DNA of 46,259 nucleotides, taken from assembly GCA_018692355.1 (NCBI GenBank), contig JABHKE010000160.1, forward strand, positions 1-46,259, read 5' to 3'. A program made the translations under genes and the position numbers. Shown here piece by piece: positions 1,551 through 7,136 of the stretch. Position 1 is the stretch's first letter, and every line of letters starts with the position of its first letter. This stretch comes from Fidelibacterota bacterium. GTDB taxonomy: Bacteria; Fidelibacterota; Marinisomatia; Marinisomatales; UBA1611. The notes under the pieces were generated by a model. The model made no database searches and was not told the origin of the DNA. It saw only the letters and a program-made list of their open reading frames with translations.

Positions 1551-1904
1551 ATGAGTAAACAGTACATTTCCATCATTTCAATAGTCCTTGTGGGTCTTAT
1601 GTGTGTAACGCCGTTTTTATCCATAGAGCGGTGCGATATGCCTTGCTGTGAAATAGATGGGAGTTCCTGCTGTGATATGGAGAAATCAATAGAGTGCCCA
1701 ATGGAGATGTCTGAGTGCAGGGTGAGTGCTTTTTTCCCTCTTTTGGGTGCACCACTAAATCAGACTGATGGCTCCTGTGACTTTGAAGAAATCAGTTTGT
1801 GCCAGAACAACCAAATTATTAAACATTGGCATGACTCTTTCCCTTCATCTATTAAGTTTGTTTACCAACATCCTCCGGAAATAATTATACCACTAATCTG
1901 TTAA
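1551..1904 (+). CDS. Small exported cysteine-rich protein, candidate metal-binding
   Basis: 117 residues from the ATG at 1551; an in-frame TTG at 1515 would add 12 polar residues and spoil the signal sequence, so I prefer 1551. An N-terminal hydrophobic segment (residues 5-24) looks like a signal peptide or anchor. It is followed by a dense cysteine stretch: Cys28, 32, 33, 40, 41, 49 and 56, with acidic and Met residues between them (RCDMPCC, SSCCDM, ECPMEM). That pattern fits soft-metal binding (Cu, Hg, Cd). More Cys and a His-rich segment (IKHWHDSF) follow. I recognise no named family. It heads a run of genes that nearly all carry paired cysteines. Confidence 0.6.
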   Translation: MSKQYISIISIVLVGLMCVTPFLSIERCDMPCCEIDGSSCCDMEKSIECPMEMSECRVSAFFPLLGAPLNQTDGSCDFEEISLCQNNQIIKHWHDSFPSSIKFVYQHPPEIIIPLIC

Positions 1905-1948
1905 ACTAAATCTAGTTTCATTCTTGCTTTTTGAATAGGTCAAAAAGC
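1903..1948. promoter_or_regulatory. Two tandem dyads between the Cys-rich gene and the HMA gene (candidate operator)
   Basis: AAACTA (1903-1908) pairs with TAGTTT (1913-1918), and a stronger perfect 9-bp dyad pairs GCTTTTTGA (1926-1934) with TCAAAAAGC (1940-1948) across a 5-base spacer. The second dyad lacks a following T-run, so it is not a typical terminator. It overlaps TTGAAT (1931-1936) and lies just upstream of TATAAC (1952-1957), a poor sigma70-like pair with only a 15-bp spacer. A repressor site for the downstream metal genes is plausible but inferred. Confidence 0.4.
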
Positions 1949-1980
1949 TATTATAACAAAAAATATGAAGAGGATTTGGT

Positions 1981-2388
1981 ATGAATATATTTCATAAAAT
2001 AATTTATGTAATCACTTTAACTGCAAGTATTGCATTATATGCGCAAACAGAAAATTCAATAAAAATCAAAGAAGCCACCGTTATTGTTAATCAAAATGAT
2101 CTTGTATTTTCAGTCAATGGGTTGGTGTGTTCATTCTGCGCATTTGGTCTACAAAAAGGTCTGTCTAAGCTAGACTGGGTAGATAAAACAAGACATGAGA
2201 AAGGAGTTTTTGCTGATATGAATAATCAATATGTTAAGGTTGCTATGATCTCTGGGAAAGAAAAGAAAGTCCAAGATGCAATCGACATTATCAAAAGCTC
2301 AGGATACGAAGTTTTTGACTATTATTTAAATCCTGATGGCAAGTTGACCCAACAGTATAAAGTGGGGGAGAATACCCATGAAAAATAA
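1981..2388 (+). CDS. Secreted HMA-like (heavy-metal-associated) domain protein
   Basis: 135 residues with a clear signal peptide (residues 1 to about 21, ending ALYAQ, likely cleaved before Gln). The mature part resembles the ferredoxin-like HMA fold: a beta strand, then the metal-binding loop VCSFC (Cys50 and Cys53), a helix, and the closing region DAIDIIKSSGYEV. This is the layout of periplasmic MerP or CopZ-type carriers, though longer. A good Shine-Dalgarno (GAAGAGGA, 1967-1974) precedes the ATG. The 3' end overlaps the MerT-like gene by 11 bp, matching the usual pairing of a soluble metal carrier with a membrane partner. The metal is unknown. Confidence 0.75.
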   Translation: MNIFHKIIYVITLTASIALYAQTENSIKIKEATVIVNQNDLVFSVNGLVCSFCAFGLQKGLSKLDWVDKTRHEKGVFADMNNQYVKVAMISGKEKKVQDAIDIIKSSGYEVFDYYLNPDGKLTQQYKVGENTHEK

Positions 2389-2767
2389 AATCTTTGCTAT
2401 TTTATCACTTTTTACATCATCTAGTACGCTCATTTGTTGTGCATTGCCGGCATTGGTAGCAACTTTAGCAGGGGGGATTGCTGTTTCAGGAATGGTCTCT
2501 GCATTCCCCATATTGATTCCTATTTCCCAGAATAAAGAGTGGATATTTTTCGCTGGTGGGATCCTTTTACTGTTGAATGGGTATTCCGTTTTTCAAAACA
2601 ATAAAGAAGTTGCTTGCGATTTGGAAGAGGAATCAGCTTGTGATATTGCTGATCAATTTAATCGGCGAATGTTTTACATCTCGGGTATAATTTATTCTGT
2701 AGGTGTATTCTTTGCCTTTGCTTTAGTTCCAATTCTAAGGTTCATTGATAATTGGAATATGTCATGA
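2378..2767 (+). CDS. MerT-like small membrane protein with vicinal cysteines
   Basis: 129 residues with about four hydrophobic segments. The first contains a vicinal pair, Cys20-Cys21 in STLICCALPAL, as in mercuric transporters of the MerT type. A second pair, Cys80 and Cys88, sits in the acidic loop VACDLEEESACD between membrane segments, again like the loop pair of MerT. It overlaps the upstream HMA protein gene and its stop overlaps the next start (ATGA). No mercuric reductase or MerR is in the window, so the substrate may be copper or another thiophilic ion rather than mercury. Assignment is by motif and topology only. Confidence 0.6.
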   Translation: MKNKIFAILSLFTSSSTLICCALPALVATLAGGIAVSGMVSAFPILIPISQNKEWIFFAGGILLLLNGYSVFQNNKEVACDLEEESACDIADQFNRRMFYISGIIYSVGVFFAFALVPILRFIDNWNMS

Positions 2768-3414
2768 GAGTAATACTTTTGATAACAACGTTATTGGCAC
2801 ATCAGCCAGTGATGGATATGGCGCCTAGGTGGAGTGGGGGTTATGGATTCCAAATACGAAATGAATATAGTCCTAATGTAAGTTCTACTAACTGGTTCGA
2901 AGGTGTATACACTAGATCGAGGGAAAAAAGGTTTACATTTAAAATTCCATTAGAAGATGGAAAAACTTTAGGATCCCCAATTATCGCACTTCCTATAAAA
3001 AAGTACCAAAATCATTCCGGTTATACTGAGAATTGGGGAATAACACCTCAGCTAAAGATACCCATCGAAGGGAGGGGTGGCACAGGATTGAGTATCTCAT
3101 ACAGTTCTGAAGATCCCAGGTTTTATCAAATGTATGATATTTTTGGCTGGAGGAATTCAATTGGCGAACCGAGCTATGGATTCGATGGAAATATAGGCTT
3201 ACATCCAATTCACAGAAATAAAACAAATTCCGGCATTTTCACCATGTGGGATGTTACTTTTCGGAAATCAAAAAGGATTACATCGGTTCATTCTGGCCCT
3301 GTTCTTGTAATCTATAGAAAAAATATTATGGCAAGAATAGAGTTTAAACTGCCATTAAAAGGAAATAAGTCCACGCTGCCCATTTTAAATTCGGGTATTG
3401 GTTTTGTATTCTAA
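2764..3414 (+). CDS. Exported beta-rich protein in metal cluster, possible outer-membrane component
   Basis: 217 residues from the ATG at 2764, which overlaps the previous stop (ATGA); an in-frame TTG at 2752 is less likely. A short hydrophobic leader (RVILLITTLLA) suggests export. Right after it comes a conspicuous His/Met segment, HQPVMDMAPRWSGGYGFQ, followed by alternating polar and hydrophobic strands, and the protein ends in Phe (GIGFVF), as many outer-membrane beta-barrels do. There are no cysteines. In context it could be the outer-membrane partner of the HMA and MerT-like proteins. I cannot assign a family with certainty. Confidence 0.5.
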   Translation: MRVILLITTLLAHQPVMDMAPRWSGGYGFQIRNEYSPNVSSTNWFEGVYTRSREKRFTFKIPLEDGKTLGSPIIALPIKKYQNHSGYTENWGITPQLKIPIEGRGGTGLSISYSSEDPRFYQMYDIFGWRNSIGEPSYGFDGNIGLHPIHRNKTNSGIFTMWDVTFRKSKRITSVHSGPVLVIYRKNIMARIEFKLPLKGNKSTLPILNSGIGFVF

Positions 3415-3436
3415 ACTATTAAAAAAAGGAATTAAA

Positions 3437-3772
3437 ATGAAATTGATCCAAATATTAATACCAATTATCTTTACTATGGTGATTGGGTGTGGGGGTGAGC
3501 AAGTGAATGTAGCTGTGAATACTCCAACAATCCAGTGTGGTATGTGTCAAAAAACCATTGAAATGGGATTAAAAAAAGTTTCAGGAGTTACTCATTCTGC
3601 CGTTGACTTGGAAACCAAAACAACTAAAGTGTTTTTTGATAAAGAAAAAACAGATTTATCTAAAATTGAAAAAGCCATATCAGGTTTGGGATATCAAGCC
3701 AATGAAACATTGGCTGACCCCATTGCTTACGAGAGGCTTCCAGGATGTTGTAAAATCGGTGGGATGAATTAA
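3437..3772 (+). CDS. HMA-domain lipoprotein
   Basis: 111 residues from the ATG at 3437, which has a purine-rich ribosome site (AAAAAAGGAATT) just upstream; the longer frame from 3398 lacks one. A lipoprotein signal peptide ends at the lipobox VIGC, with Cys18 the likely lipidated residue. An HMA domain follows, with the metal loop QCGMCQKT (Cys34 and Cys37), a helix, and the closing KAISGLGYQA. The C-terminus has an extra vicinal pair in LPGCCKIGG. This looks like a membrane-tethered periplasmic metal carrier, the second HMA protein in the run. Confidence 0.8.
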   Translation: MKLIQILIPIIFTMVIGCGGEQVNVAVNTPTIQCGMCQKTIEMGLKKVSGVTHSAVDLETKTTKVFFDKEKTDLSKIEKAISGLGYQANETLADPIAYERLPGCCKIGGMN

Positions 3773-3811
3773 TCGTATCAATAATTAGGGACGGGAGTCC
3801 ACCCCTTTTTT

Positions 3812-4321
3812 ATGTTTATTAATTCCCATATTGCTTCCGGCTATTTAGCGGGGACATTTTCAAAACAAGAGTCGAAATGGGTTTGGCTTTTAATTTTCTC
3901 AACAATTCTTCCGGATATCGATGGAATTTGGTCCAGTACTGTTGCAGGCCACCACAGTATTTTGCATACACCTATTTTTTGGATAGTTATTTGCTCAATT
4001 TGTGCAATAATTGGGAAAATTCAAAAACGCAATGACATTGAAAAAGGTTCAAGGATTATTCTTGCAGGAGCAATGCTTCATTTAATAACAGATTGGCTTA
4101 CCGCAAGAACCGTAGGCATTCAATGGCTTTATCCATTTTCTGAAACTAATTATTGGATTTATCCGATAGAGCCAGAAAAAGGGGATATTCCTATTTGGGA
4201 TATGGTAATTCCACCCTATATCAATTTTTATTTTGAAAATAAAATACTAGTCTATAGTGAAATTCTAGTCAATTTTGCAGCGCTCGGGTGGGCTGGCAAA
4301 ACTTATTTAATAAAAAAATGA
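3812..4321 (+). CDS. YdjM/YbcI-type membrane-bound metal-dependent hydrolase
   Basis: 169 residues with several hydrophobic segments and the His/Asp motifs of the membrane-bound hydrolase family to which YdjM belongs: SHIASG near the N-terminus, LPDIDGIW, a His pair in GHHSILHT, and AMLHLITDWLTA. The active-site metal is predicted; the substrate for this family is poorly defined. No Shine-Dalgarno precedes the ATG at 3812, which directly follows a run of six T. Its 3' end overlaps the next gene (ATGA). Its link to the metal-protein run is positional only. Confidence 0.7.
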   Translation: MFINSHIASGYLAGTFSKQESKWVWLLIFSTILPDIDGIWSSTVAGHHSILHTPIFWIVICSICAIIGKIQKRNDIEKGSRIILAGAMLHLITDWLTARTVGIQWLYPFSETNYWIYPIEPEKGDIPIWDMVIPPYINFYFENKILVYSEILVNFAALGWAGKTYLIKK

Positions 4322-5499
4322 AAAAATATTTCATAATAATATTATTTTTAACCATCGCCGGGTGCTCAAAACAAGATTCAGGCGAACTACCTTTTGGGAA
4401 TGGGAGTAGATATCCCCATTTAACAAAAACTGAATCAAATGGATTGCTTGTCTCCTGGTTTGAGCCAGTCGATTCTACAATTATTGGCTTGTTTTGGTCT
4501 GAATTCTCAAATAACGAATGGTTGGTAAAAACTCTCATTTATTCTTCAGATCATTTCTTTATTAATTGGGCAGACTTTCCATCCATTTTTGAACTAAACG
4601 ATAGTACTCTCGTATCGCATTGGCTAGAAATGAGTGGTAAGAGTACCTATGATTACGATGTGAAAGTCATTCATTCAACTGATCGTGGTAAAACTTGGAG
4701 TGAACCGATCTTACCTCACCGTGATGGGAAACACGCAGAACATGGGTTTGTATCCTTTTATAAAAATGAAACTCATGAATTAGAAATGGTGTGGTTAGAC
4801 GGAAGAGAAATGGCTGGTGGACATGGACATGAAAGTGCTGGAGATATGAATCTTTACACGACATCATTTGATCGTGACTTCAAACAAAGACATGATATTT
4901 CCCTGGATGCTATGGTGTGTGAATGTTGCCCGACTACGGCTGTCCAATTAGAGAAAGTAACCATAGTCGCTTATCGCGACCGCACCCCATCTGAAGTGCG
5001 AAATATTAATATTCTTCGTAAAGTAAATGGGAAATGGGAAAACCCTTATCCAGTAAATGAAGATGGCTGGATAATTCCAGGTTGTCCTGTAAATGGACCA
5101 AAACTGGCAGCAAAAAATGGAAAAGTCGCTATTGCATGGTTTACGGCTCCTGATGGTGAATCCCAAATAAACGTTGCTTTCTCTAATAATCAAGGTAAGA
5201 CCTTTTCTGACCCAATTCGAGTGGATGCAGGGGATTCCCAAGGAAGAGTTGACTTGGAATGGCTAGATGAAAAAACTATTGTGGCAAGCTGGTTAGATGC
5301 CAAGGAAGAATATTCATCTATTGTTTATAGAAAAATAGATATAAATGGCACCTTATCAGAAATTTCTTATGTTGAATCATTAGGCGGTGGACGTGGTATT
5401 GGTTATCCACAATTTGAATTGATGGAAGATCAGATTTTGTTTGTATGGACAGATCCATTGGGAAAAAACCAAATAAAATCAAGATGGATTGACCTATAA
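4318..5499 (+). CDS. BNR-repeat (sialidase-fold) lipoprotein with a CxCC motif
   Basis: 393 residues from the ATG at 4318, overlapping the previous stop by 4 bp. A lipobox (TIAGC, Cys16) marks it as a lipoprotein. Asp-box (BNR) motifs STDRGKTWSEP and SNNQGKTFSDP indicate a sialidase-like beta-propeller. Two segments stand out: a His-rich loop GGHGHESAGD and the cysteine motif MVCECCPTT (Cys201, Cys203, Cys204). I see no convincing sialidase catalytic set, so annotation as a sialidase would be unsafe. The Cys and His features and the neighbours suggest a metal-binding propeller. It is the last gene of the run. Confidence 0.65.
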   Translation: MKKYFIIILFLTIAGCSKQDSGELPFGNGSRYPHLTKTESNGLLVSWFEPVDSTIIGLFWSEFSNNEWLVKTLIYSSDHFFINWADFPSIFELNDSTLVSHWLEMSGKSTYDYDVKVIHSTDRGKTWSEPILPHRDGKHAEHGFVSFYKNETHELEMVWLDGREMAGGHGHESAGDMNLYTTSFDRDFKQRHDISLDAMVCECCPTTAVQLEKVTIVAYRDRTPSEVRNINILRKVNGKWENPYPVNEDGWIIPGCPVNGPKLAAKNGKVAIAWFTAPDGESQINVAFSNNQGKTFSDPIRVDAGDSQGRVDLEWLDEKTIVASWLDAKEEYSSIVYRKIDINGTLSEISYVESLGGGRGIGYPQFELMEDQILFVWTDPLGKNQIKSRWIDL

Positions 5500-5561: not shown

Positions 5562-7136
5562 ATGAAATTCCTAACCCGGCTTTTAATATGTTTAATTCTG
5601 ATGGGAAGTCTGCCCATTTCAGAAAGTGGATTCGTGCGCGCAGAATCGGCTGAGCAACAGAAGAAAAAGAAAAAGAAAAAGAAAAAGAAAAAGAAATCAT
5701 CCGGAAAGAAAAAAAAGAAGTCCACGAAAGGATCCAAAAAGAAAAAATCATCTGGAAAGAAAAAGAAATCCAAAAAGAAAAAACCAAAGGAATCGTCTTC
5801 AACTGCAGAGCCAATCGAATCCGCATCAACGATTAATAAAAATTCTCGTATAAACTCGGCTGCTTATGCGGATGAATTATTCAATTTAACGGGTGAACTC
5901 CAGGCGTCCAATCGAGAATTAGCTCGAGCTACACGTTATTATTACAATGAAGACCCTCAAAAGAAAATGGTATCTTTGGATTCAAAACCATTTTTTTCCA
6001 GGCAAGATTTTGAAAAAGAGTCTCGTCTTAACCCTGACAATTTATATGTACAAAGACAGTTAGGGATGCATTACGAAGCCAATGGTGATTATGATGCAGC
6101 CAAAGAAGTTTATTTACATGAAGTTGGAAAAAATCCTGGAAATCCTGATGCACATTTTTTCTTGGGATCATTATATTCAACCCTGGGTGAATATCAAAAG
6201 TCAAAAAATGCATTTGAGGAAGCATTATACATAGATCCAAATCATGGAGCAACCATTGAAGCTATGTCTATGTTTGTCCAAACAGATCAACAAAAAAAAC
6301 TGAGTCGGGATATACTTACTCTTTCCTCAGAGAGAGCACCAGATGGACCAGCCCAACGAATCACTATTATTCGTGAGAAAATGGCTTCTGGTGATTATAC
6401 AGAGGCATTGAATTTATCTGAAGAAGCCTCTGAAAAATATCCAACGCAAACGGGTTTTGTTCAACTGATTGGTGAAAATCATTTACGGCTTGGTCGGGTA
6501 GAAGAAGCTAAAAAAACATTTCAGCGCGCTGTTAAGCTCAATTCAAAAGATGTTCAGCCTCATCTTTCATTGGCAGATTTATATTTTGAACAGGGTAAAT
6601 ATGTCTATGCTGCACTTTCTTTTAGTGATGCCGTTTACCTTGAACCAGACAACCCTGATTATCGATATATGCAAGGGCTTAGTTATTTTAATGCACAGGA
6701 ATGGGGCAGAACCGCTGCTTCATGGGAAGATCTCCTACACTATCGCCCGAATGATGCCGTGGTTCGGAATCTCCTGCCACAGGCATATTATGTCCTGGCC
6801 GTTGAATATAACAGGATAGGAAATCCGACTATGGGTCGCCGGGCGTTTAAGAATGCTCTCTCTGTCAATAACAACACATCGTCTTGGCTTTCAGGTGCTA
6901 TGGGAGTTTTAGGAAAGTTTTATCGGGAAAAAACCATGTACAGCGAATCACTGGTTGCCTATCAGGAAGTTCTTGAATTGAGCCCTAACAATGCCAATGC
7001 TTATATGGGCATGGGTATCACATATTGGAAAATGAATGAAAAACAATTAGCTCGTGCTTCCTGGGAGAAAAGTATTGATATCAAGCCGGATAATAATGAA
7101 TCACGTGGATGGCTCATTTTGTCTTCTCCAGGTTAA
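5562..7136 (+). CDS. TPR-repeat protein with poly-lysine N-terminal linker
   Basis: 524 residues. Residues 1 to about 28 look like a signal peptide. Next comes an extraordinary low-complexity Lys/Ser region (about residues 34-78) with a run of 12 lysines followed by SSGKKKKK-type blocks. From about residue 150 the protein is a series of tetratricopeptide repeats (for example NPDAHFFLGSLYSTLGEYQK and NPDYRYMQGLSYFNAQEWGR). TPR arrays mediate protein-protein contacts; the Lys-rich linker could bind polyanions such as LPS, nucleic acid or cell-wall polymers if exported. Function unknown. It stands alone, about 60 bp after the upstream gene. Confidence 0.8.
   Translation: MKFLTRLLICLILMGSLPISESGFVRAESAEQQKKKKKKKKKKKKSSGKKKKKSTKGSKKKKSSGKKKKSKKKKPKESSSTAEPIESASTINKNSRINSAAYADELFNLTGELQASNRELARATRYYYNEDPQKKMVSLDSKPFFSRQDFEKESRLNPDNLYVQRQLGMHYEANGDYDAAKEVYLHEVGKNPGNPDAHFFLGSLYSTLGEYQKSKNAFEEALYIDPNHGATIEAMSMFVQTDQQKKLSRDILTLSSERAPDGPAQRITIIREKMASGDYTEALNLSEEASEKYPTQTGFVQLIGENHLRLGRVEEAKKTFQRAVKLNSKDVQPHLSLADLYFEQGKYVYAALSFSDAVYLEPDNPDYRYMQGLSYFNAQEWGRTAASWEDLLHYRPNDAVVRNLLPQAYYVLAVEYNRIGNPTMGRRAFKNALSVNNNTSSWLSGAMGVLGKFYREKTMYSESLVAYQEVLELSPNNANAYMGMGITYWKMNEKQLARASWEKSIDIKPDNNESRGWLILSSPG
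5661..5696 (+). repeat. Hexanucleotide (AAGAAA)x6 microsatellite
   Basis: Six uninterrupted copies of AAGAAA lie inside the Lys-rich linker of the TPR gene, in frame as alternating AAG and AAA codons. Copy-number change would add or remove Lys pairs without breaking the frame. Confidence 0.9.

Follow-up and report, generated by a model that had tools for sequence, protein, structure and literature searches.

One of the closest described counterparts of the locus reported here is the cutFOG operon of Rhodobacter capsulatus, in which the first gene encodes CutF, a short exported cysteine-containing peptide with a C-terminal proline motif. The intergenic gap behind it is short and the Shine-Dalgarno (SD) sequence of the next copper gene is hidden by structure; copper-bound CutF delays its own export, and the structure masking the cutO ribosome-binding site unfolds (Ozturk et al., PMC9973294). 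Experimental proof of CutF-type control comes from one proteobacterium, and most of the predicted cases fall in Pseudomonadota and Bacteroidota (PMC9973294). Four other described systems bear on the locus: the envelope-spanning CusCBA copper/silver efflux system; the MerP/MerT pair of mer operons, an HMA-like periplasmic protein with a small Cys-paired membrane protein; PcoB/CopB, with a 12-stranded barrel fold, N-terminal His/Met residues and a long Met-rich domain; and the exo-alpha-sialidases (BNR), with a sialidase-type propeller and Asp-box.

The window, the whole stretch of DNA that was analysed, comprises 46,259 nt of the forward strand of contig JABHKE010000160.1 in a Fidelibacterota bacterium MAG (GCA_018692355.1), and its nearest relatives were Candidatus Neomarinimicrobiota MAGs. 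The original prediction had picked out positions 1551-5499 as a run of seven genes, five of them with closely spaced cysteines, and as a candidate undescribed soft-metal handling system spanning the inner membrane, the periplasm and possibly the outer membrane. All seven ORFs were located there on the plus strand, and every quoted motif was present (Table 1). Genes 2/3, 3/4 and 6/7 share a few bases at their ends, and gaps of 76, 22 and 39 nt separate gene 1 from gene 2, gene 4 from gene 5 and gene 5 from gene 6, respectively. A scan for sigma-70-type promoters gave no excess over chance.

Table 1. Coordinates of the genes and of the two arms of the intergenic helix, as positions in the window.
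Feature	Length	Coordinates	Strand	Description
Gene 1	117 aa	1551..1904	+	Probable CutF-type leader: Sec-like N-terminus, CxxxCC..CC, C-terminal HPPEIIIPLIC
Anti-Shine-Dalgarno arm		1905..1913	+	Immediately 3' of the gene 1 stop codon; pairs with 1972-1980
Partner arm		1972..1980	+	Extends to the base that precedes the start codon of gene 2, whose Shine-Dalgarno sequence it overlaps
Gene 2	135 aa	1981..2388	+	Exported HMA-like protein, GLVCSFC
Gene 3	129 aa	2378..2767	+	MerT-shaped membrane protein, CC in TM1, C..C in loop
Gene 4	216 aa	2764..3414	+	Probable outer-membrane beta-barrel; predicted mature N-terminus HQPVMDMAPRW
Gene 5	111 aa	3437..3772	+	HMA lipoprotein, QCGMC and C-terminal CC
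Gene 6	169 aa	3812..4321	+	YdjM-type inner-membrane protein, PF04307 58.2 bits (cut-off 29)
Gene 7	393 aa	4318..5499	+	Lipoprotein, sialidase-type propeller fold, CECCPT and GCPVNGP

Conservation of the neighbourhood in relatives and of the cysteines across homologues had been set beforehand as tests of the prediction, and both were found. All seven genes occur together again in two further loci (L068 and L069), genes 1, 2 and 4 stand together in nearly all gene 4 loci, and gene 3 is absent from one group (L061, L063-L066). Several loci also keep the flanking genes, with an isochorismatase gene before the operon and a Lys-rich TPR gene after it. The cysteines were invariant or nearly so in genes 1, 2, 3, 5 and 7, and on this sequence conservation the quoted motifs are more than chance. 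Because neighbourhood and cysteines are both conserved, neither of the grounds named for abandoning the prediction applies. The evidence supports a metal-handling operon that reaches from the inner membrane through the periplasm to the outer membrane. Within the window, AAGAAA-type repeats at 5661-5783 encode a Lys-rich stretch in the first part of the TPR protein (5562-7136), which trails the operon in relatives too.

No reliable known family was matched by genes 1-4. Gene 2 encodes a divergent HMA-like protein. Its GLVCSFC motif is conserved across homologues, and its weak matches were to copper HMA domains (E 2e-6) and MerP; with Pfam HMA (PF00403) the window protein gave no match and 2/11 homologues matched weakly. 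In gene 3, the motifs ICC and CDLEEESAC carry the conserved residues C20, C21, C80 and C88. Searches of 5 carrier genomes with PF02411 (MerT) were negative even at E 10, and alignment to MerT by hhalign reached a probability of 6.6%, though the cysteines align. Gene 4 is assigned with moderate confidence as an outer-membrane beta-barrel on the basis of its signal, amphipathic strands, C-terminal aromatic residue and fold across five sequences. Its AlphaFold model (pLDDT 78.9) was matched by Foldseek to 12-stranded porins and, more weakly, to PcoB (7pge; TM 0.50, low); it differs from PcoB/CopB in lacking a family match and in having a short motif instead of the long Met-rich domain. The stretch AHQPVMDMAPRW is nearly invariant and the protein ends in GFVF. 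If cleavage falls at the invariant A-H junction, the mature protein would begin with His-Gln-Pro-Val-Met-Asp-Met, residues that could plausibly ligate copper. The window copy is shorter (216 aa) than those of relatives (about 257-270 aa), the missing stretches lying between strands. Gene 4 was found in 14 of the 245 genomes of the phylum, two scars included, and a search of plasmids returned none.

What stands behind the leader varies among loci. CusCBA lay directly 3' of the leader in 16 of the 20 additional loci inspected, with room for cusC only on the contig of L241; the others had a TolC/oxidase cluster, DUF4396, a gene 5 homologue or other genes next. In a single-cell genome (L071) CusCBA has the leader before it and gene 5 after it, and a 58-residue remnant of the gene 4 C-terminus directly follows the cusA stop codon; a second gene 4 scar, of 41 residues, stands just before gene 7 in G020. 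CusA matches were obtained in 2/12 genomes with intact gene 4 versus 16/20 leader loci (Fisher p 0.0008). Because of the CusCBA-bearing leader loci, the gene 4 scars and the rarity of CusA in genomes with intact gene 4, genes 2-4 and CusCBA are seen to act as alternatives to each other behind the leader. Genes 2-4 share the position of CusCBA but have no RND pump, adaptor or TolC, and are a candidate non-RND copper module. We tentatively propose, at rather less than even confidence, that they provide RND-independent trans-envelope copper export as a cassette swapped with CusCBA, and that the copper-sensing leader in front is portable, its covarying anti-SD helix adapting to the module that follows.

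The flux could instead run inward, with genes 2-4 importing copper by a MerP/MerT-like route and an outer-membrane pore for cuproenzyme assembly. MerT moves Hg inward and gene 3 has the MerT cysteine layout, both of which count for import. Furthermore, TonB-type transporter genes stand behind some CutF-like leaders (PMC9973294). Import is nevertheless unlikely, since the module replaces an efflux system behind the same leader and has CopA and oxidase genes near it.

The assignment of gene 1 was based on the list criteria for CutF-like proteins (Ozturk et al., PMC9973294), with which it agrees. At 117 aa it is below the 150 aa limit; it has a hydrophobic N-terminus, judged by eye to be a signal sequence, the CxxxC motif (CDMPCC) and Pro-Pro within the last 15 residues (HPPEIIIPLIC), and RNA structure shields the downstream SD at the gene 1/gene 2 junction. 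The motifs RCDMPCC and SSCCDM are present, and C28, C32, C33, C40, C41 and C49 are invariant or nearly so across homologues. Members of the leader family were found in 76/245 genomes of the phylum; among 33 of them, CxxxCC occurs in 32, a terminal PL[LRI]x in 31 and Pro-Pro in the last 15 residues in 21. No Pfam or NCBIfam family matched gene 1 and no curated family shared with CutF was found; the likeness to CutF is one of list criteria. Unlike CutF, gene 1 has CxxxCC plus CC, its anti-SD arm begins at the stop codon and it belongs to another phylum; the leader precedes either CusCBA or the HMA/MerT-shaped/barrel module, whereas CutF precedes a multicopper oxidase.

The helix at the gene 1/gene 2 junction was assessed in the window and across loci. 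In the window, the cognate duplex had an energy of -13.8 kcal/mol, the top value of 33 same-strand junctions tested and the sole one below -10.6, and the fold of the region gave z = -3.46. An alternative fold pairs 1970-1981 with 1863-1875, in which the Pro-Pro codons act as the anti-SD. In 12/12 loci the leader stop codon is followed by an anti-SD arm that pairs with the SD and start of the gene behind it. Across these loci the mean duplex energy was -12.2 kcal/mol for cognate and -7.9 kcal/mol for mismatched pairs (0/20,000 permutations as good); seven divergent representatives alone gave 2/5,040. At several helix positions the pair type was altered on both sides, so that by sequence the helix is covarying. 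An independent set of 17 leader-to-CusC/TolC junctions, in which SD strength guided the choice of CusC start codons and a few loci have an uncertain exact start, gave -10.1 for cognate versus -6.7 for mismatched duplexes (0/20,000 permutations as good). RNAalifold on a plain alignment returned no consensus structure, since clades differ in the register and bulge of the helix, and it was replaced by the cognate/non-cognate duplex tests; pairing was tallied with per-locus registers, which favours the structure.

These leader features and the covarying helix revise one part of the original prediction, that on the Cys-rich mini-protein: gene 1 is probably a CutF-type regulatory leader and not a binding component or metal-storage peptide. 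That it is a mere periplasmic copper-scavenging peptide, with the post-stop helix incidental or a general coupling device free of metal sensing, is improbable, as two sets of loci both show covariation of the helix, gene 1 always comes first, ahead of different copper modules, and the extreme C-terminus is conserved; what speaks for scavenging is that six conserved cysteines exceed the strict need of a sensor and that Pro-Pro is not universal.

Gene 5 exceeded the cut-off of Pfam HMA (PF00403; 44.2 bits, cut-off 24.8), and its solved relatives are mostly copper HMA domains. Its CGMC and GCCK motifs include the conserved residues C34, C37, C104 and C105. Gene 6 was repeatedly found beside genes 5 and 7 in relatives. 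Gene 7 belongs to a widespread family annotated as 'sialidase family', with relatives in 16/41 related genomes, and its propeller model is confident (pLDDT 91.4) with a sialidase-type fold. An Asp-box is a further feature in common with exo-alpha-sialidases. It differs from exo-alpha-sialidases in its GCPVNGP motif, its copper-gene neighbourhoods, a score below the Pfam BNR_2 cut-off (28.9 vs 31.4 bits) and its cysteines: C201, C203, C204 and C256 are conserved in 41 sequences from several phyla, CxCC being invariant. The Arg of GSRYP, a candidate for the RIP-motif Arg of GH33 sialidases, is variable among the homologues, which have other conserved Arg, Asp and Glu residues. A search of the open-access literature found no copper role for a CxCC sialidase. 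In a flavobacterium (L142 7459-9200) the gene for the CxCC propeller shares bases with one for a TlpA-like thioredoxin, a hint of a thiol-redox role for the propeller cysteines. Distant BNR paralogues, about 500 aa long, were treated as a different family and left aside. A second, secreted BNR family of similar length (about 500 aa) often stands beside copper modules (L030 3582-5153, L033 10082-11563, L062 5622-7487 and L066 5572-7164).

The metal was judged from the genes surrounding the operon and its homologues. In relatives, the same chromosomal site holds genes for a CueO-like multicopper oxidase, a CopA-type ATPase, CusCBA and DUF4396, and the copper-translocating ATPase scored 625.6 bits with TIGR01511 (cut-off 397). 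Gene 7 homologues also occur in Roseobacter plasmid copper clusters, adjoining genes for copper oxidase, plastocyanin-like proteins, CusA or P-type ATPases. Gene 7 had copper genes close by in 7/34 loci of the phylum and 13/46 loci of other phyla versus 0/20 control regions, all 20 of which come from the phylum, so that the comparison is strictly valid for the phylum loci only. Outside Neomarinimicrobiota and the Roseobacter plasmids, many gene 7 loci had no copper gene nearby. The host CopA is split over two contigs, and a search of the window's own genome, an incomplete MAG, found no multicopper oxidase. An uncharacterised protein recurs in copper loci (L069 4694-5533, L029 7105-7995); the L069 copy, IEWWHSELEASGGDHEGN, is outer-membrane-like and has no Pfam or NCBIfam match.

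Metal handling, as originally predicted, is thus retained, while the generic soft-metal or mercury part gives way to copper, which is favoured by the CopA-type ATPase, CueO-like oxidase and CusCBA neighbours and is probably the metal of the operon. Mercury or mixed soft-metal resistance is very improbable: the HMA and MerT-shaped pair, the relation of gene 5 to MerP and a merA gene near one plasmid relative of gene 7 point to it, but copper-specific neighbours recur, genes 2-4 include an outer-membrane barrel extra to mer, and a mercury system was rejected on the negative PF02411 search (5 genomes) and on a MerA search that gave 0/13 carrier genomes (incomplete MAGs) over the TIGR02053 cut-off, in agreement with the earlier statement that MerA is missing.

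The sequence evidence gives good support to a copper operon headed by a CutF-type leader. We consider it likely that this is a copper-responsive envelope operon in which a CutF-type nascent-chain sensor gates genes 2-4, and genes 5 and 7 handle copper outside the cytoplasm. During export of gene 1, copper on the CxxxCC/CC cysteines would slow release of the C-terminal proline motif, and the paused ribosome would keep open the helix between the post-stop bases and the gene 2 ribosome-binding site, allowing translation of the overlapping genes 2, 3 and 4. These would form an envelope copper module, composed of a periplasmic HMA-like carrier, the MerT-shaped inner-membrane protein and a barrel with an N-terminal His/Met copper-type motif, that stands in for CusCBA. 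The lipoproteins of genes 5 and 7 would bind or process copper outside the cytoplasm, and gene 6 may have an auxiliary role. The operon layout, the conserved cysteines, the covarying helix, the exchange with CusCBA and the copper-gene neighbours are seen in the sequences themselves. Copper as ligand, copper sensing, stalling, the direction of flux, the functions of genes 2-4 and the biochemistry of genes 6 and 7 are the elements of this scheme that we infer.

The description of the system as undescribed holds in part. CutF-like leaders and copper HMA chaperones are of known kinds; the module of genes 2-4 and the presence of a CxCC 'sialidase' in a copper operon look undescribed. A leader with a covarying switch occurs throughout an abundant, uncultured marine phylum, where it would control a standard pump in some genomes and an unfamiliar module in others. 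This offers a set of natural variants against which the stalling model can be compared, as well as a candidate substitute for CusCBA. The large CxCC family annotated as 'sialidase' may be misnamed, at least in copper clusters.
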